Shown one piece after another: positions 6,234 to 59,957 of a stretch of 64,000 nt of DNA. A program made the position numbers and the translations under genes. The notes beneath the pieces are model-generated. The model had not been told where the DNA came from, searched no databases, and saw nothing but the letters and a program-made list of their open reading frames with translations. Position 1 is the stretch's first letter. Each line of letters starts with the position of its first letter. Source of the stretch: Chloranthus sessilifolius (taxonomy: Eukaryota; Streptophyta; Magnoliopsida; Chloranthales; Chloranthaceae); NCBI GenBank assembly GCA_021018995.1, contig JAJIZI010000023.1:285269-349268 (forward strand), read 5' to 3'.

Positions 6234-8084
6234 TGATAAGTAGTGAAAAATACCATTTTTCACCCCTAAACATGAGCCTTGAAAGACCCTTGAGAGGACT
6301 AAATAAGTGCTTTAGTGTTCATATTGCAGCTAACCAAAAAGACAGGTCCAAATCCGAAAACCATCCTAAAATGATCAAAAAGCTGACAACGCATGTCAAG
6401 CTCAAAGAGGGAGTGAAGAAATAGCCTCAGCAATGGCTAAAAAGGTCCTAAAAGAGCAAGAAAAGACCTGAAGAAGAAGAAGGATCCATTCGCAAAGAAG
6501 AATGGAAGCTAAAAGTCAATTCGCAAAGAACTTATACTATTCGCAAAGAACCTTGAACTTTGCGAAAAGAAGAAAACACTCCTCGAATAGAAGAATGACC
6601 TTTGCGAAAAGAAGAAAACACTCTGCGAAAAGAAGAGAAGTCCTTTGCGAAAAGATCTCCTGAAGCCAAAATGCTTTGCGAAAAGATCTCCTGAAGCCAA
6701 AATGCTTTGCGAAAAAGCCCTTAAACTATGCGAAATGGCATTCTGGGGATTTGCAGCTCGTCCGAAGGGTATTTCAGGAAACTTTGCACGCGCCCCAATG
6801 CGTTTTAAAACCCAAGGACATTCCGGAAGATTCTGAGCACGAACCAAAGGCATATTCCACCCCATGTGAACACCCAAAGATGAAATTACTTGGCGGGAAC
6901 TTCTAGAAGCTCAAACAGATTTTTGAATTACATAACAGAATTGATGCCTCTGCTTTCGATTAATAACCGGATCAAGCATTTCGATTGGCGAACATATCTC
7001 GGATCCCGGTGCTCGACTCCTATTGGTTGATACAGATCTATCCAATTGTGATTGGTTGATACACATCTGACCTGGCTTAGTGAAAACTATAAATAGACGA
7101 ACCATTTGCCCAATTTGGGTATCCAGATTTTAGAGTTTTCATCTCTGTTTCTCATTCCTGGATATAGCTTATCCTGAACCCCTGTAATCCCTTCTTGTAG
7201 TTTACCTTTGAGAGCCATTGTGAGTGATTTGTACTTCCAAGTTCGGATTCAAGATCAGAACTGAGGGTTTTCGAGAAGCTCAGATCGTAAGTCCGAGGGC
7301 TTTCTAAGAAGCCGTGCTCAGTAATTGTAACGTTGGATTTTAAAAGGTTCTTTGAATTTGTGTCTTCTCCATTGGAGTCATGTCGAGGGTTCGAATGTTC
7401 ACCTTAGTGCATTAGACTTCTTTAGATTCACTCATCCGCATCCAACTTCCCTTAATTCATCATCCTGTGCGAATTAGCGTTGGTAACCTAATTCAAGCAG
7501 ATTCTGATGTTCATGTTCGAACTAAAGAATAGGCCACTGAATGACAGATCTGTGACCATTTAAGTGGATGATCACACCATAAGTCTAAACCTATTCCTTA
7601 ATTCGATTTATTTCTCTTACATCTCTTTGGTAGCAGATGAAGATTGAATCTGCCTGCTGAACTCTGATTCTCCATTAAAATTCAGAGGCTAAAGTACATG
7701 AAGCTATTATTTCTGCATTTGTCTTATTTTAAACACCTCCCCAACTCGGATCTGGATCATGTAGTTAGTTCTTTTCTTTATTTGCTTATAGTTAAATGTG
7801 ACACAATCCAACACTCTCTTTTATCTATTCTTTATTTTAGATAATTATAGAGCCAGATCCGTAGCAGATCCGGAGGTTTATCTCTCTGCTTAGACAAACT
7901 TCTCGTGGACGATCTTGAAATACTTACTTTTAAAACTTGCTACAATTGGATCTTGCGGGCCGTTGTTAGCCCCAATGTGCTGATATCCCTTTCATAAGTT
8001 AACATCCATATAACCTAGCATTCTTTAATTCTTTAATTTTTGATTCATAATGCACACAATTATGGCACACTTGGAGCGACAACA
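6234..8084 (+). repeat. LTR (copy B), 3' LTR of the non-coding element
   Basis: 1851 bp, from TGATAAGTAGTG to GCGACAACA, colinear with copy A. U3 contains a perfect tandem duplication of about 32 bp around 6648-6711 (unit includes AAGATCTCCTGAAGCCAAAA), which is single in copy A, and several TTTGCGAAAAG units. The TATA box is at 7088-7095. The sequence after 8084 (CTAAC) is unrelated to the internal region, so the array ends here. Confidence 0.85.
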
Positions 8085-11350: not shown

Positions 11351-11785
11351 TCAAATAGCTGAAACAAACGGCGTGTCCTTGGATTTAATTCCACAGAAGC
11401 GAAAGGATTTTCTCTTTGGGGGTCGGAAGGTTACAATCTTCCGAAGACAATCCACGTTCGCATGATATGCTGATAACCAATCCATTCCAAGGATCACGTC
11501 AAATCCTTCCATATCCAACGTGATCATATATGTCGTCGTCTTGTGATCTTCAATCATCACTATCACTGACTGGCATATCGTATCCGTTTTTATTGAATTC
11601 CCCGTAGGTACAGATACCGCCAATATAAAATCAAGAGTCCTGGGCACGATGCCTAACTTCTCAGAGAATGACGGCGTGATAAATGAATGACTAGACTTGG
11701 GGTCTATCAATGCACGAGCATCTACCTGACTCTCGTCACCCATACGTCGCATAACAAGTGTACATTTTATTGTTATATTAAACAA
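11351..11785 (-). pseudogene. Gypsy retropepsin-like protease
   Basis: The 144-codon frame contains ALIDPKSSHSFIT and, downstream, VILGMDWLSAYHANVDC, the two hallmark blocks of plant Ty3/gypsy aspartic proteases. The family normally has D-S/P/T-G followed by S/A-T-H-S-F. Here the Asp is kept but the Gly is replaced by Lys, so the active site is probably dead. It would have processed the Gag-Pol polyprotein. The frame stops before the RT domain and no longer joins gag. Confidence 0.85.
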
Positions 11786-12028
11786 ATAGAGTTAAGTGCA
11801 CAACAATTTTAATTATTCATATACTTAAAGTCATCAAAACACACCAACACATATGAATATTAACTACTAATTTAACTCTCAAACCGTAAAGATACCTTGG
11901 ATGCCATCATTCGATGTCAGGGCATCCGTTGTTGTGATGGCATATGCTCGACCTTGCACAATAGGTCTAGAGGACTTGTGGGTAGATACCGATCCAGCCC
12001 GCTCTTTGCTTTCCTTGCTCTCCTCAGG

Positions 12029-12826
12029 TCAATTTCTAATCATGTGGCCCATCTTACCACACCTGAAGCATGCCCCTGTATCTCTCCTGCAGTCCTCCGT
12101 CTTGTGTGGTTTCCCACACTTTACACATAATGGAGCCGGTGTAAAAGAAGAAACCCGTGAAGATCCTTGTGCAATAGAAGCTCCACTAACAGAAGAACCA
12201 GATGCTCTGAATGGGTTGGATGATGCAGGCACTGTTGGTCTTTGATAAGAACTCGGCCCTGAAGATACCGCTGGTCGGGAGTGAGTAGGGTATCTGGGAG
12301 GTATGGAGAATCTAGCCCTCTTGTTGTGCTCAGGGTCCTGAGATTGTCCTTGAAATGACCTCTCCTTATTCTGCTTATCTCTCCACATGTATTGTTTCTG
12401 ATTCTTCTCCTCTGCGATGAGAGCTTTGGACATAACACTCTCGTATGTCTCTATTTCCCACATGGCTACATCCTTATGAAGATTCTGCCTCAAGCCAAGT
12501 TGAAATTTACGAGCTCTCATCAACTCAGTGGCTACATGTTGTGATGCGAATCTAGATAATCTGTCAAACTCAGCACCATATTCTCTTACCGACATAGCAC
12601 CTTGCTTCAACTCGATGAATTTAACCTCCCACTGATACCTCACTATCTTTGAGAAGTATTTATTGTAAAAGACTTCAGTGAACTCCTCCCAAGTCCAAGG
12701 AGTATTAGGGAATTCTCTCTCTCTGTTCCTTGATACCGACTTCCACCAAGGTCCGGCATCACCATCGAGTTTGAAGGTTGCCCAACGTACTTTTACTCGG
12801 CAAAATCGTCGAGCTGGTGGGGTGGT
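12029..12826 (-). pseudogene. Gypsy gag (capsid plus two zinc knuckles)
   Basis: Read on the minus strand, the frame opens after a TAG at 12827-12829. The capsid part includes DGDAGPWWKSV, the WTWEEFTEVFYNKYF block and YGAEFDRLSRFA, typical of the retrotransposon gag domain. After a Pro/Ser-rich linker come two zinc knuckles: CVKCGKPHKTEDC (one residue shorter than the usual CX2CX4HX4C) and CFRCGKMGHMIRN. The final Cys codon of the second knuckle appears to be a TGA stop, which ends the frame. Gag would package the RNA into virus-like particles in the cytoplasm. The N-terminus is in other frames up to about 13070. Confidence 0.85.
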
Positions 12827-13140
12827 CTAGCTGCTTGTTGATTCATAGTAGCTATTTGTTGAGCGACGTTGGCAACCAAAGCTTCCAACACCTACTTCAT
12901 TCTGTTATCACCACCTCCTCTTCCACCTCTTGGTCCTACTGGAACTGCATTGTGACCCGATAGGAACTCCAATCCCCTAAATGTACCAGTAACATCGGGA
13001 ATCTCACGCAGTGAGACTTCTCTTTGTCCTTCACATCCTCCAATACGTCCGCCTCGGAACCTCAGGCCCATAAAACAACAAAATTGATCAGTATATAGAT
13101 TGTAAAAACAATCAAACCTAACTCGTGGTTCAGCCTAAAG

Positions 13141-13158
13141 CCTAGGCTCTGATACCAA
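13141..13158 (-). other. Primer-binding site, tRNA-iMet type
   Basis: On the minus strand the sequence directly after the LTR end is ATTGGTATCAGAGCCTAGG-like, the standard initiator-methionine tRNA site TGGTATCAGAGC. It fixes the LTR/internal boundary at 13159/13160. Confidence 0.85.
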
Positions 13159-13159
13159 T

Positions 13160-15765
13160 TGTGATAGCCCGAATTTCCGCACTCGAAAACCCGTGCCAGG
13201 ATGATCCCCAAAACAAATCAAAGAGTGTCTGCTCATCTAGCGGAAATCAGAACAGACTCCGTCCAATAGTGGCAGATCGAGACATCATATAAGGCTCACA
13301 CAGAAAATAAAGAGAATAAACAATGCATATAAGTAATCAAAAGAATATACGTCCTCAAAAAGGAACCAAGAAAAACCACTGGTGATGGACATCCATCACC
13401 CAAAACAATGTTTCCCAATAGTGGTTCTTATAAAATGTATATGAATACAAGTAAAACATCTATAGTAAAATACAGAAAGGTGGCCACAAGGCGCACAGAT
13501 AATTCAAAAATATATGTACAAGACCCAAAATATAAACTAAAATACCCAGGCTAAGGGTAGAACTCGTCGGTCGGGATATCAGTATCCTCCTCCTCAGCCT
13601 CAGCCTCTGTCTCTAACTGATAATCATGGTCGCTCTCCGTGCTGAGAATCCTAACCTCAGAACCTATTATATATATAAATATGGTGAGCTACCATCTAAG
13701 CTCAATAGAAGAAACTCAAGTAAATTGCATTCAAAATGTAAAGCATGGCATACAGAATGTAACTCAAACAGATAGATAATGCAGAGTGCAGACAGAGCAG
13801 AATAAATACAGACAGATAATCAGATATTGCAGAATAATCAGAATGCAGGACTTTTAATGAACAGAGCAGATGCAAAAGTACAAGGACCGACTTAATGTCA
13901 GAGTGATCAGATACATGAGTACAGTAGTTATCATCTTAATTTCTATATACTTAAATAACTCCTGTGAATATAGCACGTGGTAGCCAGATGTGTGCCGATG
14001 GGTAACCCCGACCATCATCGTTCAATGAACAATTTCATAAATGCAATAATGCCTCATCAAAGGAGCGCAATTGTGCCGAGTTTTGTAAATCAGATACACG
14101 GATATCCCGCCGTGCTGGTCGTGGGTATCCTGCCACGTCAGGAGGATTCGTCACATAAACTTTAAATCAAATACACGTAAAGACCTCATAATCAGATAAC
14201 AAAATAGATGGCAGAACAGATAACAGAGCTTGTATAACAGAAGAAAACAGATATCGATGCTCAGAAAATCATGCAGTCAAAATCGGATACAAGTTAGGTT
14301 GAATTTTCCCTACCTTGGAACAAATCTTTCTAAGATGCCCTGATCTTGACCTAGACCCTACGTATAGTATGCTACGTGTCAGAAGTGTCAGAACATAATT
14401 AAATACACTGCCCAACATTATTTTTTTTCCTGAAAACCAAAACAGTACAAAAACAGGGGATTCGATCGATCAATCCCTTCATTTGATCGATCAACTCCAC
14501 ATTTGATCGATTGGATGCCTTACATTTTAAAAAGACAGAACAGAACACATCTGATCGATCAACTCCTCATTTGATCGATCGGATGCCTAGTTGATCGATC
14601 AATTTTTATGGTTGATCGATCAAACCCATCTTTTTCATCTATACAGAATTGACCTGACTTTGATCGATCAATCACCTATTTGATCAATCAAGTCCTAAAT
14701 TCGATCGATCAATCCTCATGTTTGATCGATCGGATCAAATTTTCGTAAAACACACCTCCTGCTTCCAAGTGTTTATAAAATTGATCGATCAAATCCTCGA
14801 TTTGATCGATCAATTTCACGATTGATCGATCGCCTCGTCTGATCTATTACTCATACTTTGATCGATTAGTGCCAAATTTGATCGATCAAACCCTCACTTG
14901 ATCGATCGAGAGCACATCGGCTCCAACTTCTCAAGAAAATCATCCTTCGCTTCAAAGAGGCCTTATAAAATTTGATCGATCAAATCCTATATTTGATCGA
15001 TCGAATTATAGATTGATCGATCAATTCTCCATTGATCAATCGGATATGACAAAGAAGTCGCCATTAATGGGGTTTGTTGAATTCAAACCCAATCATGCCT
15101 AGCCTTTATAATTCACCATGAATCATTTAGACCTCCAAAGACACACATATTTATGACATCAAACTTATATAAAACCCACAACAACTCACCTTTTAAGGCG
15201 ATCCTTGATCCAAGAAATCCTCCAGTTCAACTCGGTTCTTCGGATTCGGATCGAGAGTTTTGTCGAGGTTTGCTCTTGATGAACTGATTAAGTTCACGCT
15301 AACACTCGGTTTTGCTCACTCTCAAACCGGCCGACGACACACGCTCATCGACTCACATTCTCAATCCGAGGTTCTACAACCTAGGTTTCTTGAGCGCTGG
15401 CTTTCTCACAGTTCTCTCACACAGTAAAAGCTTGAAGATAGGAGTTTCGGATCAAGGAAGAGAGGTAGGTGGTATTCCTACCTTTCTTCCTTTATAAGCT
15501 AACCAATGGAAATATCCAGGATAATTCCATTTCTAATATCTTTCACTCCGTGTTGAGCGCACACACACACTACACCCGTATACAATATTCATAAAAGATC
15601 TAATCGTATCTCAGACACGTATTGTAAGTGACATCACACTTCACACGCATATGGATTAAAAGTCCCTATATTAATATTCTTTTATTTTAATTTTTTTGTC
15701 TCGATTTTTGTGCCAGTCACGGGTACCAAAGCAATAGATGTTATCAGAATTTTAGGGTCGTCACA
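13160..15765 (-). repeat. 5' LTR of truncated gypsy element (2.6 kb)
   Basis: On the minus strand it begins TGTGACGACCCTAAAATTCT and ends GGGCTATCACA. It aligns over its whole length, in the opposite orientation, to 40154-42792. It contains the GATCGATC array at 14464-15030 and no credible coding frame. At 2606 bp it is long for a plant gypsy LTR. Confidence 0.85.
14464..15030. repeat. GATCGATC palindrome array in LTR
   Basis: About 17 exact GATCGATC octamers, most inside TTGATCGATCAA, plus several one-mismatch forms (TTGATCAATCA, TTGATCGATTG) lie in roughly 570 bp. Spacing is irregular, commonly 18-25 bp, with a larger repeat of about 190 bp (compare 14761-14830 with 14949-15020, both with TTATAAAA then three octamers). 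It is shared with the solo LTR of this family. Confidence 0.9.
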
Positions 15766-16186
15766 ATTTCCACCCCAATCTTTTACACCAAAGATCTTTC
15801 AATCATAACACACCTTAGTTTGGCCTGGATATGATTCAGTGTATCTTTGTTTGCTGTACGTGGAGTGGCTAACATATGGTTAGCACACCATAGCTCTTGG
15901 GAACCACATGTTGTTCATTTCACTTCAATAAATTTTCTCCGTTATCAAAATATTTTAAAAAAATTATATGATGCAACCATGTTTCTGTAAACTATGATCA
16001 GCATACATCATTACTATTTTCTTCCTTTTTTGGTGACCATCATCGTCATAAGATATGTAAGCATGTTACCTGCAATCATCAACTCATATACCAACAGGTT
16101 TTGGAGCATAATAAACTCTTCAATTTTGATGTGTCTGACACTGGGTCATTTCATTAACAAGGATCTTCTAAACCCCATTATGACAG
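15766..16186 (+). other. Intron-like or anonymous sequence before PP2A fragment
   Basis: No frame is supported. It ends in ATTATGACAG, a plausible splice acceptor directly before the PP2A B' exon, so at least part may be retained intron. Confidence 0.4.
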
Positions 16187-16851: not shown

Positions 16852-17263
16852 TGTTAGAATTATAAGCTAGACCGGCCCATTTGGTCCATTTTGTCTTTTG
16901 GGTCATTGGCCCATTTGGAATTATATTGGTCAATCTTGGAACTCTTTTTTTTGTCATAGGAAATTGGTGTATTTAATGTAGTGTCTTGAGAATATGGAAT
17001 ATACTTTGAGAATGTAATTTTCTATCTTTTTTTAGGCTAGGTAGTTGCTTTGGAAGTGTATGTTTATTTATTCCCGGTTTTGTATTGTGGGCTATTTTAA
17101 TCACTCATGTATTTTCATTTTACAAGTTATATGAATGAAATTTGAAAGGTTCTAAGTAGTATATTACTTTAGTCTTCATTTTTAGTATTTTTCTAATCAA
17201 AAGAATAACTTTCTTCTCTTTAGAGTGTCATCTTCTTCCAATCCTAGTTGGTGTAATCCAACA
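16852..17263 (+). repeat. 5' LTR of copia element
   Basis: Begins TGTTAGAATTATAAGC and ends GTGTAATCCAACA, matching 21319-21733 almost throughout. Confidence 0.92.
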
Positions 17264-17265
17264 AA

Positions 17266-17279
17266 GTGGTATCTAAGCT
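17266..17279 (+). other. Primer-binding site of copia element
   Basis: GTGGTATCTAAGCTTG follows the LTR closely. It resembles the initiator-Met tRNA site TGGTATCAGAGC with a central divergence, common in copia elements. Confidence 0.7.
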
Positions 17280-17287
17280 TGAGATTC

Positions 17288-18157
17288 ATGGCTTCCAATA
17301 TGTTGCAACCTCAACTTCCTCGTTTCACCGGTAAGAACTACAATCAATGGAGTATTCAAATGAAGGTTTTATATGGGTCTCAAAATTTGTGGGATATTGT
17401 TGAGACCGGATATGTAGAACCGGAGGATCAAGCGGCTCTCACACAAGCTCAACTCAATGAGTTGAAAGAAAATCGCAAGAAGGAAAAGAAGACTTTGTTC
17501 TTTATCTATCAAACTGTGGATGAAGTTATTTTTGAAAGAATTTCATCGACGTCATCGGCAAAGCAAGCATGGGATACTCTAAATACTTCATACAAAGGCT
17601 AAGATAAAGTCAAATTAAAGCGGCTCCAAACTCTTCAAGTGAGTTTGATTCTATAAGAATGAAGGATTCGGAAGCGGTTGAAGATTTTTCAATCGAGTAA
17701 TTTCTCTCGTTAATCAATTAAGGATTAATGGTGAAAATCTTCAAGATCAAAGAATTGTAAAAAAAATTCTTAGAAGTTTGACTTGTAAGTTTGAATATAT
17801 TGTTGTTGCAATTGAAGAATCTAAGGATTTATCTACTTTGTCTTTGGAAAGTTTGTTGGGATCGCTTCAATCCCATGAACTTCGTATAAAGCAATTTGAT
17901 TCTTCTCCTCTAGAGCAAGCTTTTCAAACTCAAATTTCCTTTAAGGAAAGTTTTAGAGGTAGAAGAGGATGGCATTCTAATCGCGGACGAGGAAGACATA
18001 ATGGAGGAAGATATCAAGCAAAGAAAGAGATGAAGATGAGTCATCTTCGTCATCAAGAGAAAGGGGAAGAGGAAGAGGCCGATCTTCTCTTTCTAATGTT
18101 CAATGTTATCATTGTCAAAAATATGGTCACACCATAAAATTTTGTAGAAAAGATTGA
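17288..18157 (+). pseudogene. Copia gag with CCHC zinc knuckle
   Basis: The ATG at 17288 opens MASNMLQPQLPRFTGKNYNQ, the usual start of copia gag (capsid domain, with WSIQMK and LWDIVE blocks). A TAA at 17600-17602 ends the first segment. Near 17635 and 17690 one base seems to be missing each time, moving the frame to the segment 17700-18030 (capsid C-terminus). A further shift near 18020-18030 leads to an Arg/Gly/Ser-rich linker and an intact zinc knuckle CYHCQKYGHTIKFC at 18104-18145. A TGA at 18155-18157 then separates gag from pol. Gag would coat the RNA in particles. Confidence 0.9.
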
Positions 18158-21100
18158 CGGAAGAAGAAAAAGGAATCAAATTTTGTTCAAGAGAACAATC
18201 AAAGTAAGGAAGATGATACTCTCTTTCTTGCTTGCAATGTTCAAGAAGTTGCATTCAATGAAGATTGGTATCTTGATAGTGGTTGTAGTAACCACATGAC
18301 GGGTAACAAAGGCGTATTTGTCACTTTGGATGAATCTATTCAAAGTGAAGTAAGGGCCGGCGATGATAAACGACTTTCTCAGAAGGGAAGTGGTAATATT
18401 CTTGTTCAATCAAAGAAAGGCATCAAACGCATCTCAAATGTTTTCTATGTACCCGGCCTCAAGCACAATCTTCTAAGTGTTGGACAACTCATTTTGAAAG
18501 GACACAATGTTCATTTCAAAGGAGATGCATGTCAAATCAAGGATGTGAACAATGCTCTCATTGCCAAAGTAAAGATGACTCCAAACAAGATGTTTCCTCT
18601 TAAGTTTCAAAATGAAGTTCTACCTTGCTTCAATTCTATCATCCAAGACAAATCATGGCTATGGCATCTTCGGTATGGCCACTTGAGCTTTAGCTTGTTG
18701 ACTCTCATGTGCAAAAATCACATGGTGAGAGGCATGACAAATATAGATCGCAAAGATCAAGTTTGTGAAGGATGCGCACTCGGAAAGCATCAAAGAAATT
18801 CTTTTCCGATTGGGAAAGCTTGGAGGGCATCAAATCCTCTTCAGCTTGTTCATTCGGACCTATGCGGGCCTATGCACACAACTTCGATTGGCGGTAATCG
18901 TTATTTCCTCACTTTTATTGACGATTATAGTCATAAATCTTGGGTTTATTTTCTCAAAAAAAAATCGGAGGTATTCGGCCACTTCAAAACATTTAAGGCC
19001 TTGGTTGAAAAGCAAAGTGGTTTTATGTTGAAAACTTTGCGTACTGATCAAGGTGGTGAATATGTTTCTCATGATTTTCAAAATTTCTTAAAAGATAATG
19101 GCATTTGGCATCAATTAACTACTCGGTACACACCTCAGCAAAATGGTGTTGCCGAAAGAAAAAATAGAACCCTTATGGAATTGGCTAGAAGTATGTTAAA
19201 AGCCAAAGGGATGCCAAATATATTTTGGGCCGAAGCCGTTGCATGTGCCAACTATCTTTTGAATCGTGCCTTTTCCAAAAGTATTGAAGGCATAACACGG
19301 CAAGAAGCATGGAATGGACATAAATCATGTGTTGCGCATTTGAGGATATTTGGTAGCATTGCATATTCTCATGTGCCGGATGAAAGAAGAAAAAAATTGG
19401 ATGATAAATCTGAAAAATGCATTCTTATTGGTTATAATGAAACTTCAAAGGCATATAAATTGTTTAATCCCATCACCAAGAAAACTATCATAATTAGAGA
19501 TGTAAAATTTAATGAAGAAGAAGCTTGGGATTGGGATTTCCAAGAAAAGACACAAAAGTCTATTTGTGTCAATGAAGAAGAATTGAAAGATCCTCAAAAT
19601 TGTGAGCATGAAGATGATAGAACTTCTTCTCCATCTTCATCTTCACCATCTTCATCATCATCATCATCAAGTTCTAATTCTCCTCCAAAGAAGACCAAAA
19701 GTATAAATGAAATTTATGAAGCATCAAGAAGACTTTTTGATGAAGATGAGATTAACTTTACACTATATGCCGATGCCGATCCAATTTCTTTTGAAGAAGC
19801 ATCTCAAGAAGAAAAGTGGAAACATGCAATGAATCAAGAAATTGACTCCATCAAAAGAAATGAGACTTGGGAGTTAACGGAACTTCCAAATGGGCACAAA
19901 TCCATTGGTGTGAAATGGATATATAAAACCAAGTTAAATGCAAAAGGTGAAGTTGAAAGGCACAAAGCTCGGTTAGTGGTGAAAGGCTACAAGCAAAGAC
20001 ATGACATAGACTTCAATGAAGTTTTTTCTCCCATTGCTCGGCTTGAGACTATTAGATTGGTCTTAGCATTGACGGCTCAAAGAAATTAGAAGGTTTATCA
20101 AATGGATGTCAAATCAGCATTCTTAAATGGCATTCTTGAAGAAGAAGTTTATGTTGATCAACCTCCCGGGTATGTGGAAAAGGGTAAAGAGCACAAAGTT
20201 TGTAGATTGAAGAAAGCACTTTACGGTTTAAAGCAAGCACCAAGGGCATGGTATAGCCGTATTGATGGGTACTTCTTGAAGAATGATTTCAAAAGGTGTC
20301 CTTTTGAACACTCTCTCTACATCAAAGAAAACACTCAAGGTGAGTTTTTAGTTGTTTGTTTATATGTTGATGATTTAATCTTCACCGACAATAGTTCAAG
20401 CATATGTGATGAATTTAAAAAATCCATGATGCTTGAATTTGAAATGACCGATATGGGTCTCCTGCATTTCTTTCTTGGCATTGAAGTAAAGCAAAATGAT
20501 GATGGGATTTTTATATCTCAAAAGAAGTATGCAAAAGATTTATTAAAAAAGTTTAGAATGGAAGATGCAAATCCTATTTGCACTCCAATGGAGGTTGGTT
20601 TGAAACTTAGCAAAAATGATAATGAAAAAAGAGTTAATGAAACTCTTTATCGGAGTCTTGTTGGTAGCCTTATGTACTTGACCGCCACAAGACCGGATAT
20701 TATGTTTGCGTTTAGCATGATTAGCCGTTTCATGGAATCACCTAGAATAAGTCATTGGAATGCCGGAAAGAGAATTTTGCGATATGTATGTGGTACCATT
20801 AATGATGGTATACATTACCAAAGGGTTCAAAACTCATGTTTGGTTAGATATTGTGATAGTGATTGGGGTGGAAGTGTAGATGATGGCAAAAGCACTTCCA
20901 GGTACAATTTTAATATTGGTTCGGGCTCAATTTCATGGACTTCAAAGAAACAACAAGTTGTTGCTCTCTCTACAACCGAAGCGGAGTACATTTCATTAGG
21001 ATTGGCCAGTTGTCAAGAACTTTGGTTAAGATGGGTTTTAGAAGAACTTAAACATCCATCAATTGAAGCTATAACATTATTTTATGATAATCGTTCAGTC

Positions 21101-21307
21101 ATTGTACTAACCAAGAATCCCGTTTTTCACTACAAAAGTAAGCACATTTGAATTAAGTATCATTTCATCCGTGACTTGATCAATGATGGAGAAATTGATG
21201 TGAAACCTTGCAAATCACAAGATCAAATAGCGGATATTTTTACAAAGGCATTGAAGAAAGAAACTTTTATCAAGATCAAAGAAAAGTTCGGCATTCGATC
21301 AGTCTAG
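18158..21307 (+). pseudogene. Copia pol: protease, integrase, RT, RNase H
   Basis: A single frame runs 18158-21307 with only two internal stops: TAG at 20087-20089 and TGA at 21149-21151. Order: protease with the D-S-G active site in WYLDSGCSNHMTG (18265-18303); integrase zinc region (HLRYGHLS with later CEGCALGKH) and core with SDLCGP, TDQGGEYVS and the E in NGVAERKNRT; RT with FSPIARLETIR, MDVKSAFLNG and the catalytic YVDD box (LYVDDLIF, near 20361-20384); RNase H with TEAEYISL. The TAG falls where the family has Trp, consistent with TGG to TAG. The catalytic residues themselves are intact. The upstream part 18158-18295 belongs to pol although no ATG starts there. Confidence 0.93.
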
Positions 21308-21318
21308 CTCAGCTCAAG

Positions 21319-21733
21319 AAGTTAGAATTATAAGCTAGACCGGCCCATTTGGTCCATTTTGTCTTTTGGGTCATTGGCCCATTTGGAATTATATTGGTCA
21401 ATCTTGGAACTCTTTTTTTTGTCATAGGATATTGGTGTATTTAATGTAATGTCTTGAGAATATGGAATATACTTTGAGAATGTAATTTTCTATCTTTTTT
21501 TAGGCTAGGTAGTTGCTTTGGAAGTGTATGTTTATTTATTCCCGATTTTGTATTGTGGGCTATTTTAATCACTCATGTATTTTCATTTTACAAGTCATAT
21601 GAATGAAATTTGAAAGGTTCTAAGTAGTATATCACTTTAGTCTTCATTTTTTGTGTTTTTCTATACAAGAGAACAACTTTCTTCTCTTTAGAGTGTCATC
21701 TTCTTCCAATCCTAGTTGGTGTAATCCAACAAA
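21319..21733 (+). repeat. 3' LTR of copia element
   Basis: Matches the 5' LTR; its first two bases appear to be AA instead of TG, so the terminal dinucleotide is mutated. The upstream sequence (AGCTCAAGAA) is a weak polypurine tract. Confidence 0.9.
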
Positions 21734-31269: not shown

Positions 31270-33165
31270 TTAAGTAGTGAAAATACCATTTTCACCCCTA
31301 AACATGAGCCTTGAAAGACCCTTGAGAGGACTAAATAAGTGCTTTAGTGTGCTAACCAAAACCAAAAGACAGGTCCAAATCCGCGGCCTAAAATGATCAA
31401 AAGTCGACAATTCATGTCAAGCTAAAAAATGGAGTGAAGAAATAGCCTCAAAGAAGTGGTTAAAAACGACTGAAAAGAAGAAGCAAAGACTGAAGAAGAA
31501 AAAGGATCCATTCAAGAAGAAGAATGGAAGCTAAAGCTCAAGCAAAGCATCTCTTCAATTCGCAAAGAACCCGATTACGGCGAGCAGGAGGAATAAACTA
31601 CAAATAGAACATTGAGCGTAACAAAGTCCTTTGCGAAAAGAAGAAAAGGCTATTCGAGCAGAACAAAGTCCTTTGCGAAAAGAAGAAAAGGCTATTCGAG
31701 CAGAACAAAGTTCTTTGCGAAAAGGCTTTAAGCCAAAGTTCTTTGCGAAAAGGCTTCAAGCCAAAGTTCTTTGTGAAAAGGCTTTACGAAGCCAAAGTTC
31801 TTTGAAAAGGCTTTACAAGCCAAAGTTCTTTCTTGAAAAGGCCCTTAAACGAGAAAGCGGCGTTTTGGAAATTACGACTCGTTCAAAGGGTATTTTAGGA
31901 ATCGTGCAGCGCCCCAATGCAATTAAAGAACAAGGAACATTCTCGGAAGATGTGGCGCGATCCGAAGGCATATTCTACCCCATGTGGGCGCTCGAAATTT
32001 GAATTACTTGGCGGGAACTTCTAGAAGCTCAAAACAGATTTTTGAATTCTATAATGAATTGATGCTTCTAAGCGCTGATTGGTGAACGGATCGAGCATTT
32101 TCATTGGCGAACAGTCTGGATCCCGTGCTCAACTCTCATTGGGCAATCGGATCGAGCACTCTGATTAGGTTAATTGACCATGTGCGGGATGGAAGGAAAG
32201 CTATAAATAGAGAGCCATTTGCCCAATTGGGGCATCCATTTTGAGTTTCATTTCTATTTCCTCCTTCCGGTCCGGATAGTCTATCCGTCACTCTCTGTAA
32301 TAGCTTCTTTTGTTTTGCTTTTGAGAGTTGTTGAGAGTGATTTGTAACTCAAGGAGATCGGATTCAAGATCGCTCGAGGGCTTTCTAAAGCCGTGCTCAG
32401 TAATTGTAAGATTGAATTTAAAAGGTTCTTTGAAGCTGTGTTTCTCCATTGGATTCATGTCAAGGGTTCTTATTGATCACCTTAGTGCATTAGACTCCTT
32501 TAGATTCACTACTTTGCATGCAATTTCCTTGATTCATTACCCCGCATTTAATTAGCGTTGGTAACCTAGTTCGACAAAGACTTGCGATGATGATTCATGT
32601 TCAATTGAGGAAAGGTCAACAACTATTGGATGATCTGTGACCATTTAAGTGATGAGATCATAACCATAAGTCTAAAACCCTTCACGAATTGATTTATTTC
32701 TCTTACATCTGCTACCGGTAGCCGGATGAAGATTGAATCAACTCTGTTTAGTTGCAGATTCTCCATTAAAATTCAAAAGCGAAATCACAGAAAGTTATTA
32801 CTTCTCCATTTGTTTTATTTCAAACACTTTCCCAACTCGGATCTGGATCATTTAGTTAAATCTTTTCTTTATTTGTTTTTAGTTAAACGTGACAAAACCA
32901 AACACTCTTTCTTTATCTGCTTTCTTGATAAATATGAGCCAGATCCGTAGCAGATCCGAGGTCTATCTCCTATTTCGCACAAATTCTCGTGGACGATCTT
33001 TAATATACTCACTTTTAAAACTTGCTACAATTGGCTCGATCTTGCGTGCTATTGTTAGCCTTCAATGTCTTGATATCTATTTCCTAATTTAAAATTATGT
33101 AACTTAATATTCATTAATTCGTCATTCAAAACACACATAAATTAGGCACATGTTAGGCAACAACA
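31270..33165 (+). repeat. Solo LTR of the non-coding element family
   Basis: Colinear with the LTRs at 148-1929 and 6234-8084, from TTAAGTAGTGAAAATACC to GGCAACAACA, with the TATA box at 32202-32209. No internal region follows on either side. The first bases differ from the TGATAAG of the other copies. No clear TSD is visible. U3 tandem repeats are different here: two copies of a 45-bp unit (31625-31708) and then about five units around CAAAGTTCTTTGCGAAAAGG (31708-31840). Confidence 0.85.
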
Positions 33166-39917: not shown

Positions 39918-40153
39918 TAGCTCCTCGTATGCTCTCGTAGTAATAAAACGTGTAAGACCGGTTACACAGATAATACATTATGAGTTTCACTACATTATCA
40001 ACCCCTGCAAGATATCCTAACCCATTTTGGAATGGAAATGGGTTGCGAAGATTTGGTCTTCATCTCATCATCTAGGCTCGGACCCAGTCCAACTTGCTCC
40101 AACTCAATGGGCTGAGAGCCATAGTTAGGTGCAAGTCAAAATGGGTCTGTTAG

Positions 40154-42792
40154 TGTAACGACCATAAAATTTTGAACAGAACTCGACTGCTTCGATAAGC
40201 GTGCCCGACATAAAAATCGAGACAAATTTAAAAAAATTGTAAATTAATATTATTGAAGATAACATTAATCCATAAAAAATTGAAGTCATAGGTGACTTCT
40301 TACGTAAATCCAAGTTGTGTCTGATGTGTGATGAGATGTGATACGCTAAAGAGGTGTGTATGTGCTCCACACGAGAAATTAGAATTTAGAAAATAGGAAA
40401 ATATCTAGATATCCCATTGGTTAGCTTATAAAAAAAGGATGAAGGCTGGAATGATTATTTTTCATCTTCTCCTTCTTGTTTTCCTGAAAATATGTAGCCT
40501 AGGTTATTGTTTTTGACGATTGCTTTGAGAAACCACAGTGGAGAGAGACCTAGGTTTGAGGTTGTTTGAATTGAGAAGGCAGAATCAACATCATAATGTC
40601 GAGTTGGCTTGCAAGGTTGCGTACTACCTCTGTGTGTTAAAGCGGAGCCGAGCATCTACTGTTCCGGGTCGTGACGGCGACAAAAACCTCTGAAACCCTC
40701 TTCGGATCGCTTTGCCGAGATCCCGAAAGGGATTTTAAATAGGTGAGTTTTCATATTAAGATTGTTAAGGTTTAAACCTCATGAATGTGTAAAAGGATGA
40801 GTATGAGTGGTTGTTAGAAACCATTAAGGGTTAAAATCAAAATAGGTCAAAATATAGTGATCGCCATTAATGACAGAAACTGTCATTATTGATCGATCAA
40901 GGTAGTTGATTGATCGATCAAGACTGGGATTGATAGATCAAGGCAGTGAATTGATCGATCAATTCGTATAACGAGTTAATAAGAACAGTAAGTAAGTTTT
41001 CTGGAAGTTCAATGCCCGATGGGCATTGATGATCAATTCTGAAGGTTGATCGATCAAATTTGAAATTGATCGATCAATAAGAGAGGTTGATCGATCACCT
41101 CATTGTGATCGATCAAAGTCAATAATGATCAATCAATATGAACATTGATCGATCAATGAGGAGGATTGATCAATCAATTTAGAGATTGATCGATCAAATT
41201 GTATAAGTCAAGTGTGCAAACAGGAGGAGGAAAATTTGAGTTTGATAGGATTGATCGATCAATGAAAAGATTGATTGATCAATGAGGTGGATTGATCGAT
41301 CAAGCAAGAGTGTTGATCGATCAAATCTCATACGTTAATTATGAGTTAAAGGAATACATTGATCAATCAAGGGAAGTAATTGATTGATTAATTGATGATT
41401 GATCGATCAAGTAAGGACATTGATCGATCAATCACCCCTGTTTTCTGCTGTTTTAGTTTTGTGGACAAGACACTATTAGACACTGTACCAGTTCATATTC
41501 TGACATGTCTAATACCAAGTATGTTATATATATGGTCTAAGATCAAACCGTGATGCTTTGAAAAACTTTGGATTTGCTTAGAAAAGTCTGATCTGAGATA
41601 GAAAAAATTCAACTTAAAATATATCTAATTTTGACCGCATGATATCTTAAATATCTGTATTCTGACTCTAGTTTTAAAAAGCATGTCTGCATATACATCA
41701 AGCTCAGTCAAACTCTGATTTCTGTATTCTAATGCCTATATATGATTTATGTCATCTGCTCTAATATTTGATTCTTGAGGTCATATGTATGTATTTGATT
41801 TTAAGTTTGAATTTAGACGATCCCCACCGACTTGGCAGTATAACCATGATTGGCACAACGGTATATCTGTGCATCTGCTTGAAAATTTCTCCTGGCACAA
41901 GTTACTCTTCTATTGTAGAGGCTTGTTGCACATTATGAAATTATTCATTGAACGACGATTGATTGATGTTTCCTATCGGCACACATCTGGTTACCACGTG
42001 CTATATATTCTCGGGAGCTACTTTAGTTAGGGATATGCATGATTTAAGTCATCTAAATACTGTACGCATAGCATCCTGCAAATTCGAGGTTCATGCTCTT
42101 GCGATTCGCATTGATTTTTACGCATGTATGATCTTACATCATGCTCTGTTAGATTCATTTATACTCTGATTTCCTTATTTGTTTGAGATACGTTCTGAAA
42201 TCATGTTTTACAATTAAGATGCAAGTTTAATTTGAACTTCTTCTACCGAGCTTAGATGTAGCTCACCGCTTTTCTATAACATTAATAGGTTACGAGGCTA
42301 GGGCTCCCGTGAGCGCGACCATGACTATTAGCAGGCCGAGGTGAGGCTAAGGAGGAGGATAAACACCCTTTGTGAAGTTTTATTAGCACATTGGGTACTT
42401 AGTTATATTTTGTATCTGTTTTGTACTGGGATTATTGTGCTTTGGCCACCTCACGTATTTATTACTATAGATGTTGTTTTCTTTTACTTGTATTATTATA
42501 TATTTTATAGGAACCATTATCGTGAACCATTGTTTTGGGAGATGGATGTCCATCACCGATGGTTCCTTTTATTCCTTTTGAGGATGTATATTCTTTTGTC
42601 CTTATATATATGCATGATTTTATTTTCTTTATTCTTTTAATGTCTTATATGATGACTCGATCCATACTCTTTGGACCGTATCTGCTCTAATTTCAGCTAT
42701 ATGAGCAGAAACTCTTTGATTTGTTCCGGAGAACATCCAGAGCATGATCCTGATAACACTAATTTTCGAGTGTGAAAATTTGGACTGTCATA
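40154..42792 (+). repeat. Solo LTR of the GATCGATC gypsy family
   Basis: Begins TGTAACGACCATAAAATTTT and ends TTTTCGAGTGTGAAAATTTG near the right border, matching the reverse complement of 13160-15765 in order, with substantial divergence. It is flanked by GTTAG (40149-40153) and GGTAG (42793-42797), a 4/5 TSD. No internal sequence is present, as expected after LTR-LTR recombination. Confidence 0.85.
40891..41437. repeat. GATCGATC palindrome array in solo LTR
   Basis: About 14 exact GATCGATC octamers plus many one-mismatch variants (TTGATCAATCA, TTGATTGATCA) lie in about 550 bp. It is the counterpart of 14464-15030 in the other LTR copy. The sequences between octamers have diverged more than the octamers. 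Confidence 0.9.
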
Positions 42793-43180
42793 GGTAGGGA
42801 GGTCAACGTGTTATGCTAAAAAAAACACGTGGAACTTATTGACTGCTTGGAATCAAACAATGGGGAATGATTTTTACCTTGATCTTCCACACGTGGATCG
42901 CGAGACCATGAGAATTATTCCACCAGGTAGCATAAATCCCAAAAAGTGGCCCTAAAATATATGCACACATCACATTCAAACCTGATTTTAGGGTCATTTC
43001 TTGGAATATGTGCCTCATGGAATAAAAAACTGACTATTGGATGATTAACTCAGTCTCAAGATCCATTGTGTGCTAGTTACACAAACACTAAAGCTGGGCT
43101 GTTTATGTCTTATGGCACTATATAAAAAAAGAAAATTCTAGCTTGTCTTTATGCAGATATATTTTAAGGCTACGACTATT

Positions 43181-54423: not shown

Positions 54424-54449
54424 TATGTGATAGTATGCCATGACATGAT
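54424..54449. mobile_element. Left end of TIR element (split by gypsy)
   Basis: GGCATATGTGATAGTATGCC pairs with the right end near 61322-61345 (complement of CATATGTGATCGCATATGCC). The flanks ATCAATGTTG and ATCAATGGTTG suggest a 9-11 bp TSD, as in Mutator-like elements. The gypsy element inserted 25 bp inside this end. Confidence 0.6.
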
Positions 54450-55311
54450 TGACAGGGACGCCGAGTATATGGACGTCGGTTTTGAACCACATCGCTTTTA
54501 CCAGCGTCGGAAGAAACGAAAAGGAAGCCTGAGTGCTACAACTTCAGGAGAAAAACGGAGGCAAAAGACGTCATCAGGCGAAGGACGTCCACAAGATATT
54601 GACGTCAGAAATAAGGACCCCCATGTTTTTGTGGGGACGGACGTCCGTGACCTCCGAGGAACGTCGTGGAGACGTTCCACCCATGACAAAACTACTAGTT
54701 TCGCGAAAATTTAGCTTTTTCAGTCTTTTATTATTATTAGGACACTTTAATTCAAATTATTTTTTGGTTGCCTATTAAGGAGGCTTGTAAATACAATTAC
54801 TTTAGTTTGTATGAATATTGATTGAGCTTTTGCTTGAATGGAGAGAGAGTCTTCTTCCCCGTGATGGGTTTGGTGTGAGGCCAAGGGAGTGATTTCCATT
54901 ATTTTCTTCTTTATCTTTCAACCTCGTTATCTATCTATCTATCTCTATTTAGCCTTTACAAAATCTTAATCTATTTGTTCATCAATCCCGAAGCCTCAAA
55001 TCATTCCAAAACCCTAGTTTTCCTCTGAGCCATCAAACACAACCCTAGTGTGGACAGAATCTACATCGATGACGAATGCCCACCGGAAAAGCTAGAGTTC
55101 AATCTCTAAGTCCGATCCCGCCTTAAATCTAATGGGACTTGCGCATTGGACTGAACCTTACCCGGATCTCGCGCGATCTACCCATCAGAATTCTCAGAAC
55201 CCTAAGGTATTTGAGATAATTTTGCGATTAAACTTGAATTAATTTTATTTAATTTCGGCAAAACTCCATTAAAGTACTAATCACGCATTTTAGGGTTCCC
55301 GTCCCGCGTCA
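54450..55311 (+). repeat. 5' LTR of gypsy element
   Basis: 862 bp, begins TGACAGGGACGCCGAG, ends GTCCCGCGTCA. GGACGTCC-type palindromes at 54583-54680. The TATA box present in the 3' LTR (TATATAAGG) is reduced to TATTAAGG here by loss of two bases. Confidence 0.9.
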
Positions 55312-55312
55312 G

Positions 55313-55330
55313 TTTTGGTATTAGAGGCAG
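55313..55330 (+). other. Primer-binding site, tRNA-iMet type
   Basis: TTTTGGTATTAGAGGCAGG directly follows the LTR; it matches TGGTATCAGAGC with a C-to-T change and one added base. Confidence 0.8.
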
Positions 55331-55444
55331 GTTTTCTAGGTTTGGGCATAATTGCTTGTCATATTTCATTCTGTTGCATTATTTTTCTTTTGTGAGTCCA
55401 TATTGCATTCCATACTAGAACCCTAATAGACCTTTGTGATCACC

Positions 55445-56697
55445 ATGGATTCGAATGATATTCTCGATACTCTAAGAGTTATGCGAGAAGAGTTGGGTGC
55501 AATTAATACGTGACTGAATACAATAGTGCAATCCCAGACAACTCTAGGGACTTCTAATGATAGGCTACGTGATCGAATCAACCAGTTAGATGAGTTTGAT
55601 GAGCACCATGATCAGCGTCGAGAGCGTGAAGGCCTGCGCTTTGAACGCAATGGTCGCCAAGATGATCGGAATTGGAACCATAGAGATCATCGAAGAGATG
55701 ACTACGACCCCGAAATACAACTCCTCAAGAATGTCCGAGTTGACATTCCAACATTCGATGGAAGAATGGACCCTGCAGTCTTCCTCCATTGGTTTTCTGA
55801 CATGGACCAACACTTTGATTGGTATGACATGAATGACGACCGTTGTGTCAGGCTCGCAAAAATGAAATTAATTAGGCAAGCTCGACTTTTCTGGGTCAAT
55901 GTTGAGCGCATAAGGGTGAATGCCTGTCCTCCCATTATCCGTTGGGACGACGTGAAGGAAAAGCTTGCTGAGAAGTATGTTCCTTTATTATACTAGCAAT
56001 GCCTCCTCGACCAATGGCAAAACTTATGCCAAGGCGGTATGCCCGTAATCGGGTACATTGACAAGTTCGAAGAGTTTATGATGAGGGCCAAGGTATCGGA
56101 AGACCCTGAAATCACTGTCTCTAGATTCCGCACTGGATTGCGATTAGATTTGCAAAAAGAGTTGATTTCTTACCCTGTGAAAGCTCCTGAAAGATGTTAT
56201 GCCGTTGTGCAAGATCTTGAACGGTATTTGAAAACATCAGTGGTGAAGCGAATTGAGCCACAACATAGTGGTCTTCGCTCCGGTGAGGGATAGTTTAATG
56301 TTGAAAATCCTCCTCCCAAACCTACACAACCTGTCCCTACCAATGCAAGGTTTGAAAAGGGAAAAGGTGTAGTCGGAGAATCCTCAAGGGACAACTCTCA
56401 CGTCAAATGCTATAAATGTCATGGGATGGGATACTTTGCCGCCCAATGGCCTACAAAAGATCTCCAAAGGAATCTCTTCATTGAGGGAGAGGAGGATGAT
56501 GACGAGTTAGTGGTTGAAGAAGAAATGTTTGAGCCGGATGTCACACCCAGTAATGAGGAGGGTGATGATAGTAGTCGTGTTTTAGTTGTGAGGTGTGCGC
56601 TTGCACAATCTCAATGGGATGAGAAGGATGACTGGCGAAGGGAGAACATCTTCCACACCTTTTTCAGATTGGATGAAAAGAGTTGTAAGGCCATCGT
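55445..56697 (+). pseudogene. Gypsy gag
   Basis: The ATG at 55445 opens MDSNDILDTLRVMREELG. One frame runs through 56697 but is cut by TGA (55514), TAG (55994) and TAG (56291). Contents: charged N-terminus, DIPTFDGRMDPAVFLHWFSD, AKMKLIRQARLFW, and VSRFRTGLRLDLQKEL of the retrotransposon gag capsid. The zinc knuckle at 56408-56449 reads CYKCHGMGYFAAQW: the His and last Cys of CX2CX4HX4C are replaced by Tyr and Trp, so it cannot bind zinc normally. Confidence 0.9.
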
Positions 56698-59686
56698 GAC
56701 AGCGGTAGTTACACCAATGTTGTGCCAACTCACACTATACGCCGCTTGGTGCTTACACCAGAAGCCCACCCGAGACCCTATAAAGTTGCATGGGTTGACT
56801 CTTCATCCATTCTTATGTCAAAAAGGTGTCATGTACCGATTCAGTTGGGTTCTTATTTGGACACCTTATGGTGTGATGTGGTGTCGATGGATGTGGGTCA
56901 TATCATTTTGGGAAGGTCGTGACTCTACGACATGAACGTGACCCTTTTGGTCGATCAAATATATGCACGTTCATGCATAAGGGCAAAAATATCACCTTAC
57001 ACGATTCGGAGTGTGACAAGGTTTCTTTGGGTGAGAATCTGGTCTACGTTGTCGTCACTGTTGTGGGCGCTCCCCAGTCAGTGAGCGAGCACCCCAAGGA
57101 GGTTGAGCTGATCTTGAACGAATTTGCGGATGTCTTCCCAGAAGACTTACCCAATGAACTCCCTCCCATGCGTGACATCCAACATGCAATCAACTTGGTT
57201 CTCGGATCTACCCTACCGAACCTGCCCCACTACGGTTGAATCCGATTGAGCATGTCGAGTTGACTCGACAAGTCAATGAACTCCTTCAAAAGGGGTTCAT
57301 CCAAGAGAGTATGAGCCCGTGTGTGTCGTCACCGCCTTCTCACTCCTAAGAAAGATGGTACATGGCTCATGTGTGTGGATAACCGTGCAATCAATAAGAT
57401 TACGATTAAGTATCGGTTTCCCATACCGAGACTTGACGACTTGCTCTATATGATGGTTGGTGCCACTATCTTTTCTAAGATAGACTTCAAGAGTGGCTAC
57501 CATCAAGTCTGAATCCGCCTCGGTGATGAGTGGAAAACCACCTTTAAGACCAAGGACGGTCTTTATGAGTGGACGGTCATACCATTTGGGCTTCCTAATG
57601 CTCCGAGTACTTTCTTGAGGCTCATGACCCAAGTGTTGAGGCTGTTTCTAGACAAATTCCTTGTTGTTTATTTCGATGAAATCTTAATTTATAGTAATGA
57701 CAAGGAACAACACTTGAACCACCTTAGGTTGGTTTGTGAAACCCTCAAGGGCGAGAAGTTGTTTGCGAATCTCAAGAAGTGTACCTTCATGCAACGTTCC
57801 GTTGTCTTCTTGGGATTCATTATCTCGGCAGATGGAATGGTCGCGAACCTCGAAAAGGTTAGAGCCATTGTGGAGCCGAACCTAAGAACATACACGATGT
57901 CTGTAGCTTTTATGGATTGGCTACTTTCTATCGTCTCTTTATCAGAAGCTTTAGCACCATCATGGCCCCAATCACTGCTTGTATGAAAAGGGGGGATTTT
58001 CGATGGGGCAAAGCCGTGACGAAAGCGTTTGCCGAGATCAAACAAAGAATGAGTAATGCACCTGTCATGCGTTTGCCGGACTTTTCTAAGGTCTTCGAAG
58101 TCGCATGCGACGCATCGGGTGTGGGCATAGGAGTGCTTAGCCAATAGTGGCCTATTTTAGTGAAAAGCTTAATGAGGTAAAGAAAAAATAATCCACCTAT
58201 GACAAGGAGTTCTATGCAGTTGTTCGTTTCTTATGGTATTGGAAACATTACTTTAGGCCGCAAAAATTTGTGTTGTTCTCTGACCATGAAGCCTTACGCT
58301 TCTTAGCCTCTCAGAAGAAGCTAAATCCGAGGCACGCAAAATGGGTTGAATACCTCCAGGGGTTCACCTTCGTATTGAAGCATAAGGCCGGTGTTGAAAA
58401 TAGGGCTGCTGATGCGCTTAGTCGTTGGGTGGCGACTTTGCACTCTATGAGCACCGTGGTTGTCGGGTTCGAACAATTAAAGGATGAGTACCCCGGTTGC
58501 CCAGATTTTGGGGTAGAGTACACTGCTCTCCTTAGTGACCTGATCAGCACACATTCCTCATACACCATCCAGGATGGGTACATGTTCAAGGGCAATCGCT
58601 TTTGCGTCCCTCTCACTTCATTGCGTGACTTCCTCATTTGGGAGTTACATGCCGGAGGGTTAGTCGAACATTTAGGGCGTAATAAGACTATTGCGCTCGT
58701 AGAGGATAGGTTCTTTTGGCCTAGCCTAATGAGAGATGTCGCCCGGGTTGTCAAACATTGTCGTACTTGCCAAGTGTCGAAAGAGAGTAAGCAAAATACC
58801 GACTTATACACCCCGTTACCCGTGCCACACACACCATGGCAAAACCTCTCATGGATTTTGTGCTTGGACTTCTTAAAATTCCAAGGAAGCACGAGTCCAT
58901 CTTTGCTATAGTGGACCGATTTTCCAAAATGGCCCACTTTATACCTTGTTCGAAGACCTCCGATGCTTCTCACATTGCTAAGTTGTTTTTCATGGAAGTC
59001 GTGCGTCTTCATGGGTTGCCCAAAACCATCGTGTCTAATAGGGATGTCGAGTTTACTAGCTATTTTTGGAAGACCCTTTGGCACATGATGGGCACCATGC
59101 TCCAATTTTCGACGGCCTATCACCCTAAAACGGATGGCCCAACCGAGAGCGCCAATAGGAGTTTAGGGAATCTCCTTCGTAGTCTTGTCAGTGATCATGT
59201 TAGGAACTGGGATACCATTTTGTCCATAACTGAGTTTGCCTATAATAATTCTGTCAATAGGTCTATAGGCATGAGTCCCTTTGAAGTTGTACATGGTCAT
59301 AGGTTTAAGACACCTTTAGATTTGATCCCCATGTCAGCGTCGCATAGAGTTTCTGAGTCAGCCGATTCATTTACACAACACATTCAAAGTTTGCATGCCG
59401 AAATTAAACAGAAGATTAATTCAAACAACAATCAATAAATTATCTGTTGATGCTCACAGCATTTAAGAAATATCAAGTGGGTGATCGGTGATGGTTCGGC
59501 GGTTCCTTGGGATCCGCAAAGAAGCTCCATTCCGAGGTCTTTGGACCTTTTAGAATTTTGGCAATGAGTGGTCCTAATGCATATGTACTTGAGCTTCCTC
59601 CAGGTACAGGGGTTAGTTCGACATTCAATGTGGAGGACCTGATTCCTTACCTGGGTTCAATCCTGCCTCCTGCAAATCCTTTCTAG
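56698..59686 (+). pseudogene. Gypsy pol: protease, RT, RNase H, integrase
   Basis: Protease (56698-56922): the D-S-G codons GAC AGC GGT at 56698-56706 survive, but one base missing just upstream puts them out of frame with gag. RT (57040-57990): [31 protein letters not shown] (followed by a TGA at 57510), [11 protein letters not shown] and [11 protein letters not shown], where the catalytic FDD is FDE. RNase H (57990-58440): [39 protein letters not shown]. Integrase (58440-59686): the His-His and CRTCQ zinc region, MDFVLGLLK, SNRDVEFTSYFWK and DGPTESANRSL with catalytic residues mostly kept, and a C-terminus with GPNAYVLELP and SSTFNVEDL. Frame changes occur near 56697, 56918, 57236, 57325, 57890, 58145 and 58840. 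No chromodomain is visible. Confidence 0.92.
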
Positions 59687-59941
59687 CCCTCTCCTAGTCC
59701 CAACCTCACCCAAACCTTGAACCCGGTGCCTCTCCTTCTCCAAGCAAGCGATGACATGATGTGATTGAGGATATCTTAAATGATCATGTCATATCCACAC
59801 GAAGGAGGCTTTGAAATACTTGGTCAAATCGTCGAAAATCGAGTCTAAAAACATATGGATTCATGAGAATGAGGTTAAATCGATTGGACCCCGACTTGCT
59901 TGATAGTTACCACGAACGTGTTTCATCGGTGATGAAACCTA

Positions 59942-59957
59942 TTTGGTCTGGGGGAAT
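59942..59957 (+). other. Polypurine tract of gypsy element
   Basis: TTTGGTCTGGGGGAAT directly precedes the 3' LTR. Confidence 0.65.

Follow-up and report, generated by a model that had tools for sequence, protein, structure and literature searches.

Palindromic repeated motifs in plant LTRs are described for the Sireviruses (Ty1/copia), each of which carries 8–32 palindromic RM boxes of 10–20 bp, with 3–14 of them in the 3′ LTR (available excerpts of PMC2829016). According to the same excerpts, the palindromes form clusters that start 200–400 bp into the LTR, span 300–500 bp and lie upstream of the TATA box (PMC2829016). Sirevirus palindromes are reported to be small-RNA hotspots (PMC5311732, PMC10760457, in the portions available), and both of these papers cite a maize study (Bousios, 2016) that ties such palindromes to small RNAs.

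Short motifs that act from downstream of the transcription start site (TSS) are known from plants as well. In the accessible part of PMC11525189, plant GATC motifs give a per-copy gain in transcription from downstream of the TSS, every change to the core in a mutational scan reduced activity, and GATA factors are named as the readers of the motif, YVGATCBR. The motif TTNGATYTG, as presented in the accessible part of PMC6760150, is additive up to 20 copies and effective at less than about 1 kb from the TSS, from introns or exons; the arrays of 11 to 20 copies used there were made by hand. In the same source, Gallegos and Rose note that the behaviour of GATA sites fails the strict position rule of TTNGATYTG, and they doubt GATA factors (PMC6760150). 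Finally, the rice element Retrosat2, with LTRs of more than 3.2 kb, is described as having a U3 of 244 bp, in which a CCAAT box is followed by a TATA box, and an R region of about 2 kb (excerpts of PMC3485330).

Palindrome arrays in two LTRs of a Ty3/gypsy family

Two related LTRs, A and B, carry arrays of the octamer GATCGATC at matching places (Table 1). The octamer occurs 32 times in the 64-kb window (the whole stretch of DNA analysed here): 17 copies fall in LTR A (14464–15022), 14 in LTR B (40891–41429) and one stands alone at 24446. The chance level for the whole window, taken from 100 dinucleotide shuffles, is 0.87 on average with a maximum of 4, and the crowding of octamers in both LTRs pointed out in a preliminary description of this DNA is thus real and far above chance. 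GATC itself reaches 40 copies per 580 bp in array A and 34 in array B, compared with a window mean of 3.1 and with 9 in the next-richest stretch. The octamer had also been said to occur usually as the 12-mer TTGATCGATCAA. This holds in B (12 of 14 octamers) and is about half right in A (9 of 17), where the flanks of the remaining eight start with CC, TC or GC, or end with GA or AG.

When degenerate sites are admitted (at most two mismatches in the octamer core and at most four in the 12-mer), LTR A has 23 sites and LTR B has 22. One and two lone off-array matches, respectively, were dropped from these to give the counts in Table 1, and a site of B with a 1-bp deletion (LTR position 873) is left out of its 20. 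The sites are grouped into runs, within which the spacing has a mean of 20.2 bp (n = 33, s.d. 0.95) and is 20 or 21 bp in 28 cases, that is, about two helical turns. Autocorrelation peaks at 20, 21 and 41 bp in the arrays. Seven linkers of 34–83 bp separate the runs, four of them opening with a TATAA-like string, and no helical phase between runs (spacings of 46–95) was apparent by inspection.

Table 1. Coordinates of the two LTRs, their arrays and the associated features in the window
Feature	Position	Strand	Description
LTR A	13160–15765	−	2606 bp; 5′ LTR of an apparently truncated Ty3/gypsy element
LTR B	40154–42792	+	2639 bp; solo LTR
gag ORF of element A	12029–12826	−	Pfam Retrotrans_gag (2.4e-18), Ty3_capsid (4.3e-8)
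Protease ORF of element A	11351–11791	−	Pfam RVP_2 (1.2e-27)
Array A	14462–15043	−	22 TTGATCGATCAA-related sites, 17 exact octamers; runs of 4, 7, 4, 4 and 3
Array B	40889–41431	+	20 sites, 14 exact octamers; runs of 4, 8, 4 and 4
CCAAT/TATA block, LTR A	15491–15509	−	LTR 257–275
CCAAT/TATA block, LTR B	40414–40432	+	LTR 261–279
Candidate intron, LTR A	14430–15189	−	AG|GTGAGT donor to TTTTCAG|G acceptor; spans the whole array
Candidate intron, LTR B	40743–41456	+	AG|GTGAGT donor to TTTTAG acceptor; acceptor weaker

LTR A starts with TGTGACGACCC (TGTGACG) and ends with ATCACA; it is followed by the PBS-like ATTGGTATCAGAGC, then by gag and protease. With its TG...CA LTR, a PBS and Ty3-type gag and protease, element A belongs to Ty3/gypsy, and its ORF list gives it a truncated appearance on inspection. 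We take tRNA-iMet to be the match of the PBS-like string and, from the LTR ends and size, the A/B family presumably belongs to a Tekay-like clade. LTR B is flanked by an imperfect 5-bp target-site duplication, GTTAG (40149–40153) and GGTAG (42793–42797), which match at four of five positions. The two LTRs align from end to end with 1550 of 2458 columns identical (63%), and no further copy of LTR A besides LTR B was present among the 120 self-matches of the window that scored highest. The protease ORF had no match in a PDB sequence search. A pattern of two exact 12-mers 7–8 bases apart was absent from the viral and genome contig collections searched. The pattern does not cover the 21-bp spacing and neither collection holds plants as such, which leaves this negative with little weight.

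Several other features were seen along the way. A strongly conserved palindrome near the 3′ ends of the LTRs, GGTGATGGATGTCCATCACC at 13381–13400 (−) in A, recurs with one base different at 42538–42557 (+) in B; it may be an RNA dimer or hairpin signal. The G-box-bearing ATCGGCACACATCTGGYTACCACGTGC is conserved at 13973–13999 (−) and 41975–42001 (+), followed by TATATTC in A or TATATATTC in B. Elsewhere, the window holds a Ty1/copia element (16853–21733, +) with 413-bp terminal repeats that are 97.3% identical, whose copia-type integrase and reverse transcriptase lie in two same-frame ORFs meeting at the stop codon that ends at 20089. Another repeat family (460–1929, 6596–8084 and 31271–33120) contains tandem repeats of 21, 28 to 31 and 42 bp built on CTTTGCGAAAAG. 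At 54448–60853, direct repeats about 84% identical flank RNase H and integrase ORFs, apparently another gypsy element.

Conservation of the octamers and of their spacers

The palindromes have been kept in two old LTR copies while the DNA between them has turned nearly random. The pairwise identity of the octamers, somewhat inflated by the choice of sites by motif similarity (which favours conserved ones), is 0.942 in A (16 monomers) and 0.895 in B (15 monomers), compared with 0.391 and 0.363 for the spacers, which come close to the 0.294 and 0.319 expected of them from composition. Permutation of octamer and spacer columns gives p = 1.5e-4 for A and 3.5e-4 for B, the two LTR copies being the whole sample for these statistics. 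The identity test took 31 of the 42 sites, namely those with the next site 19–21 bp further on; seven pre-linker sites, two last sites and two sites with spacings of 17 and 18 were left out. Across all 42 sites, the A and T of both GATCs (positions A4, T5, A8 and T9 of the 12-mer) are invariant, and a hole of 41 bp, as expected where a site has been lost, is found in no run of either array.

Of the changes in the core, five of seven in B are CpG transitions, the pattern expected of decay after insertion, and two of six in A fall at the central CpG. Among aligned CpGs, those of array B are retained in A at a higher rate than those elsewhere (12 of 18 versus 14 of 53; p = 0.004), whereas the reverse comparison, of array A CpGs kept in B, is weaker (12 of 29 versus 14 of 57; p = 0.14). 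Outside the core, the left TT of the 12-mer is relaxed in A, with 14 changes at positions 1–2 (including seven T-to-C changes at position 2) against four at positions 11–12, the right AA. Such asymmetric upkeep is unlike the prediction for a symmetric dimer site.

It had been proposed that retention of the array hints at a function, and that octamers mutating at the rate of the spacers would speak for a passive repeat. In each array the octamers are kept far better than the spacers, which favours the first of these views. Repeated homogenisation, offered as another cause of the retention, finds no support, since the spacers would have become homogenised as well. Probably a protein docked at the palindromes and thereby turned the element on.

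Position of the arrays and competing explanations

No exact block of the A/B alignment is longer than the 19-bp CCATTGGTTAGCTTATAAA, which combines an inverted CCAAT with a TATA string, lies about 450 bp ahead of the array and is presumed, from its motifs, to be the core promoter. The only TATA string that is exactly common to both copies at an aligned place is the one at LTR 257–279, before the array. If the start site is assumed to lie about 32 bp past the TATA, the array begins at +422 in A and +431 in B and ends near +1000. Candidate splice sites (Table 1; scored with a splice-site matrix, by which the B donor ranks second in its LTR) and a drop in G+C from before to after the candidate donor (0.47 to 0.37 in A, 0.44 to 0.34 in B) are compatible with an intron around the array. 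The array thus most likely lies in a transcribed leader, the R region, perhaps within an intron, as far as these sequence signals can place it.

The explanation that we prefer, and for which we consider the case about evenly balanced, is that some 20 palindromic sites for a host protein make up a cis-regulatory cluster, which works as a downstream, dose-dependent enhancer. The sites would be read by a DNA-binding protein of the host that is sequence-specific and probably dimeric and, because the sites of a run stand two helical turns apart, the bound proteins would be aligned on one face of the DNA. As long as the family was active, selection would have maintained the sites, with the spacers free to drift. 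From about 420–1000 bp downstream of the start that the CCAAT/TATA block would set, the array would raise LTR transcription in proportion to the number of sites, like the plant downstream GATC and intron-enhancement motifs. The GATA family would provide the first candidate factors. The position, the number of copies and the invariance of the GATC core agree with this identity and the flanks do not, so that GATA/GATC is retained as a candidate: the six strongest published hexamers occur at one of the 40 GATCs of array A and at one of the 34 of array B, YVGATCBR has six matches in A and none in B, and the exact TTNGATYTG is found in neither array. It also counts against this explanation that the array extends in large part past the first 500 bp, the zone of strongest GATC effect. 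Among the functions put forward in the preliminary description, a binding site fits best, and we opt for a selected array of protein-binding sites that acts on transcription, for which a position in the leader is more likely than one upstream of the start.

The upstream position corresponds to a classical U3 enhancer, with the true promoter past the array and the sites acting from upstream, as proposed for the Sirevirus RM boxes, whose clusters sit upstream of a TATA box (PMC2829016, in the excerpts available). We regard this as unlikely, since no TATAAA, TATATA or TTATAA listed after the array occupies aligned places in the two copies. It stays alive through a possible decayed TATA box, ACTATACGTAGGG in A and TTATATATATGG in B, which follows the array at aligned places, and TATATTC adjoins the conserved G-box in both copies.

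A function in RNA is distinctly less probable. On this view the palindromes of the transcript would fold into hairpins or pair as dimers, and would serve in packaging, in dimerisation or as templates for siRNA. The sense RNA is predicted to fold strongly (z = −8.5 for A with 20 shuffles and −12.3 for B with 100 shuffles), and Sirevirus palindromes are small-RNA hotspots according to the available portions of PMC5311732 and PMC10760457. Such folding is, however, expected of any palindrome array, and shuffling the order of the sites leaves neighbours pairing just as well: the observed pairing is reached by 0.40 (A) and 0.57 (B) of the shuffles over the 12 positions, and by 0.25 and 0.45 over the end positions alone. 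Region 13100–15800 has no Rfam match at the gathering threshold. The self-pairing RNA suggested earlier is predicted by the folding, and neighbouring sites show no covariation.

Short motif arrays are the substrate of the VANC proteins of VANDAL transposons. An array serving in this manner for an element-encoded or silencing-related factor, as an anti-silencing or a methylation target, appears very unlikely here. It would agree with the CpG observed/expected ratios, which are 1.69 (A) and 1.24 (B) in the arrays compared with 0.76 and 0.80 in the rest of the LTRs. A Pfam scan of three ORFs of element A, in turn, gave gag, protease and one ORF without a match, which is weak evidence against an element-encoded factor as only these three were covered and the element looks truncated.

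That the array is a passive minisatellite with a unit of about 20.5 bp, in which GATCGATC occurs by chance, is more improbable still. A weak bias shared by the spacers (such as TGAGGA), together with the autocorrelation peaks and the TATAA-like starts of the linkers, indicates that the array grew by duplication. The difference in conservation between octamers and spacers, however, departs from uniform decay: in simulated uniform minisatellites (star phylogeny, 5000 per array) the best eight-column identity is at most 0.530 for A and 0.514 for B. A 28-bp minisatellite at 31706–31842 is, by eye, conserved over most of its unit, unlike the GATC array. The passive minisatellite is rejected for both A and B, as conservation across the repeat unit is not uniform.

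Hi-C with DpnII or MboI yields the ligation junction GATCGATC. An assembly artefact of this origin, suggested by the trimming of the same junction in Chicago/HiRise assembly (PMC5288721, in the part available), has a negligible chance and is rejected, because the two loci share a homologous run structure with TT/AA extensions and degenerate, CpG-decayed copies, and chance ligation leaves the 20-bp period unexplained. Conversely, with 17 and 14 copies of the junction in the arrays, Hi-C read trimming may cut the reads of this family.

Comparison with known palindrome arrays and downstream motifs

Literature searches of open-licence articles gave no description of this array among the matches listed. 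For GATCGATC, nothing relevant by title appeared among the matches listed, and none was obtained in combination with 'DAP-seq'; with retrotransposons, the matches listed included a Chicago junction and a primer. Those for TGATCGATCA as a motif were unrelated by title, and palindromic repeated motifs in gypsy LTRs led only to the Sirevirus paper and to one on Drosophila. The string 'transpos' is absent from the main text of PMC11525189.

The arrays carry a selection signature on a short motif present many times over in the LTR of a plant Ty3/gypsy element, and their spacers provide an internal neutral reference. Should the array act from downstream of the start, it would offer a natural case with many copies in which to test dose-dependent downstream enhancers of plants and the ways in which retrotransposons come by them. 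A bolder reading is that a Ty3/gypsy lineage with an LTR leader built on about 20 phased GATC-core palindromes captured the plant-specific, position-dependent downstream transcription switch; we hold this to be doubtful. Were it true, the synthetic intron-enhancement arrays would have a natural counterpart with a high copy number in this family, whose dispersed solo LTRs would amount to portable enhancers acting from downstream.

The array resembles the plant downstream GATC motif in its strict GATC core, that motif being copy-number dependent and acting from transcribed sequence, and it differs in its flanks, which are mostly T-GATC-G and C-GATC-A, outside the six strongest hexamers. The likeness to the TTNGATYTG motif of intron-mediated enhancement is that both are GAT-based, the exact motif being missing here. 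Retrosat2 provides a parallel for the layout of the LTR, with more than 3 kb in length, a short U3, a CCAAT then a TATA near 210–240 and an R region of about 2 kb; its CCAAT is, however, forward whereas ours is inverted, its tandem repeat is CTTTTT ×7, and no palindrome array is mentioned in the available part of its description (PMC3485330).

The closest match in kind is the Sirevirus array. The preliminary description knew of no LTR of this design, which is wrong in kind, as Sirevirus LTRs do bear palindrome arrays (excerpts of PMC2829016). Like them, LTRs A and B each hold several copies of a palindrome (22 and 20 sites). In both systems a multi-copy dyad motif lies in the upper half of the LTR, with CpG islands and a presumed cis-regulatory role, and the Sirevirus Tnd-1 motif ACAATCGATTGT has ATCGAT in common with the array here (PMC2829016, same excerpts). 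The differences are that Sireviruses are Ty1/copia, whereas the present family has a Ty3-type gag and RVP_2; that the Sirevirus core is CGG-CCG in 12 of 13 cases instead of GATC-GATC; that Sireviruses have 3–14 copies in the 3′ LTR against 22 and 20 per LTR (PMC2829016, as excerpted); that the sites here are spaced by 20–21 bp; and that the Sirevirus clusters lie upstream of the TATA box whereas the present arrays, judging from the conserved block, probably lie downstream. What is new with respect to known palindrome arrays is thus the Ty3/gypsy host, the GATC core, the phasing, the higher copy number and the probable downstream position.
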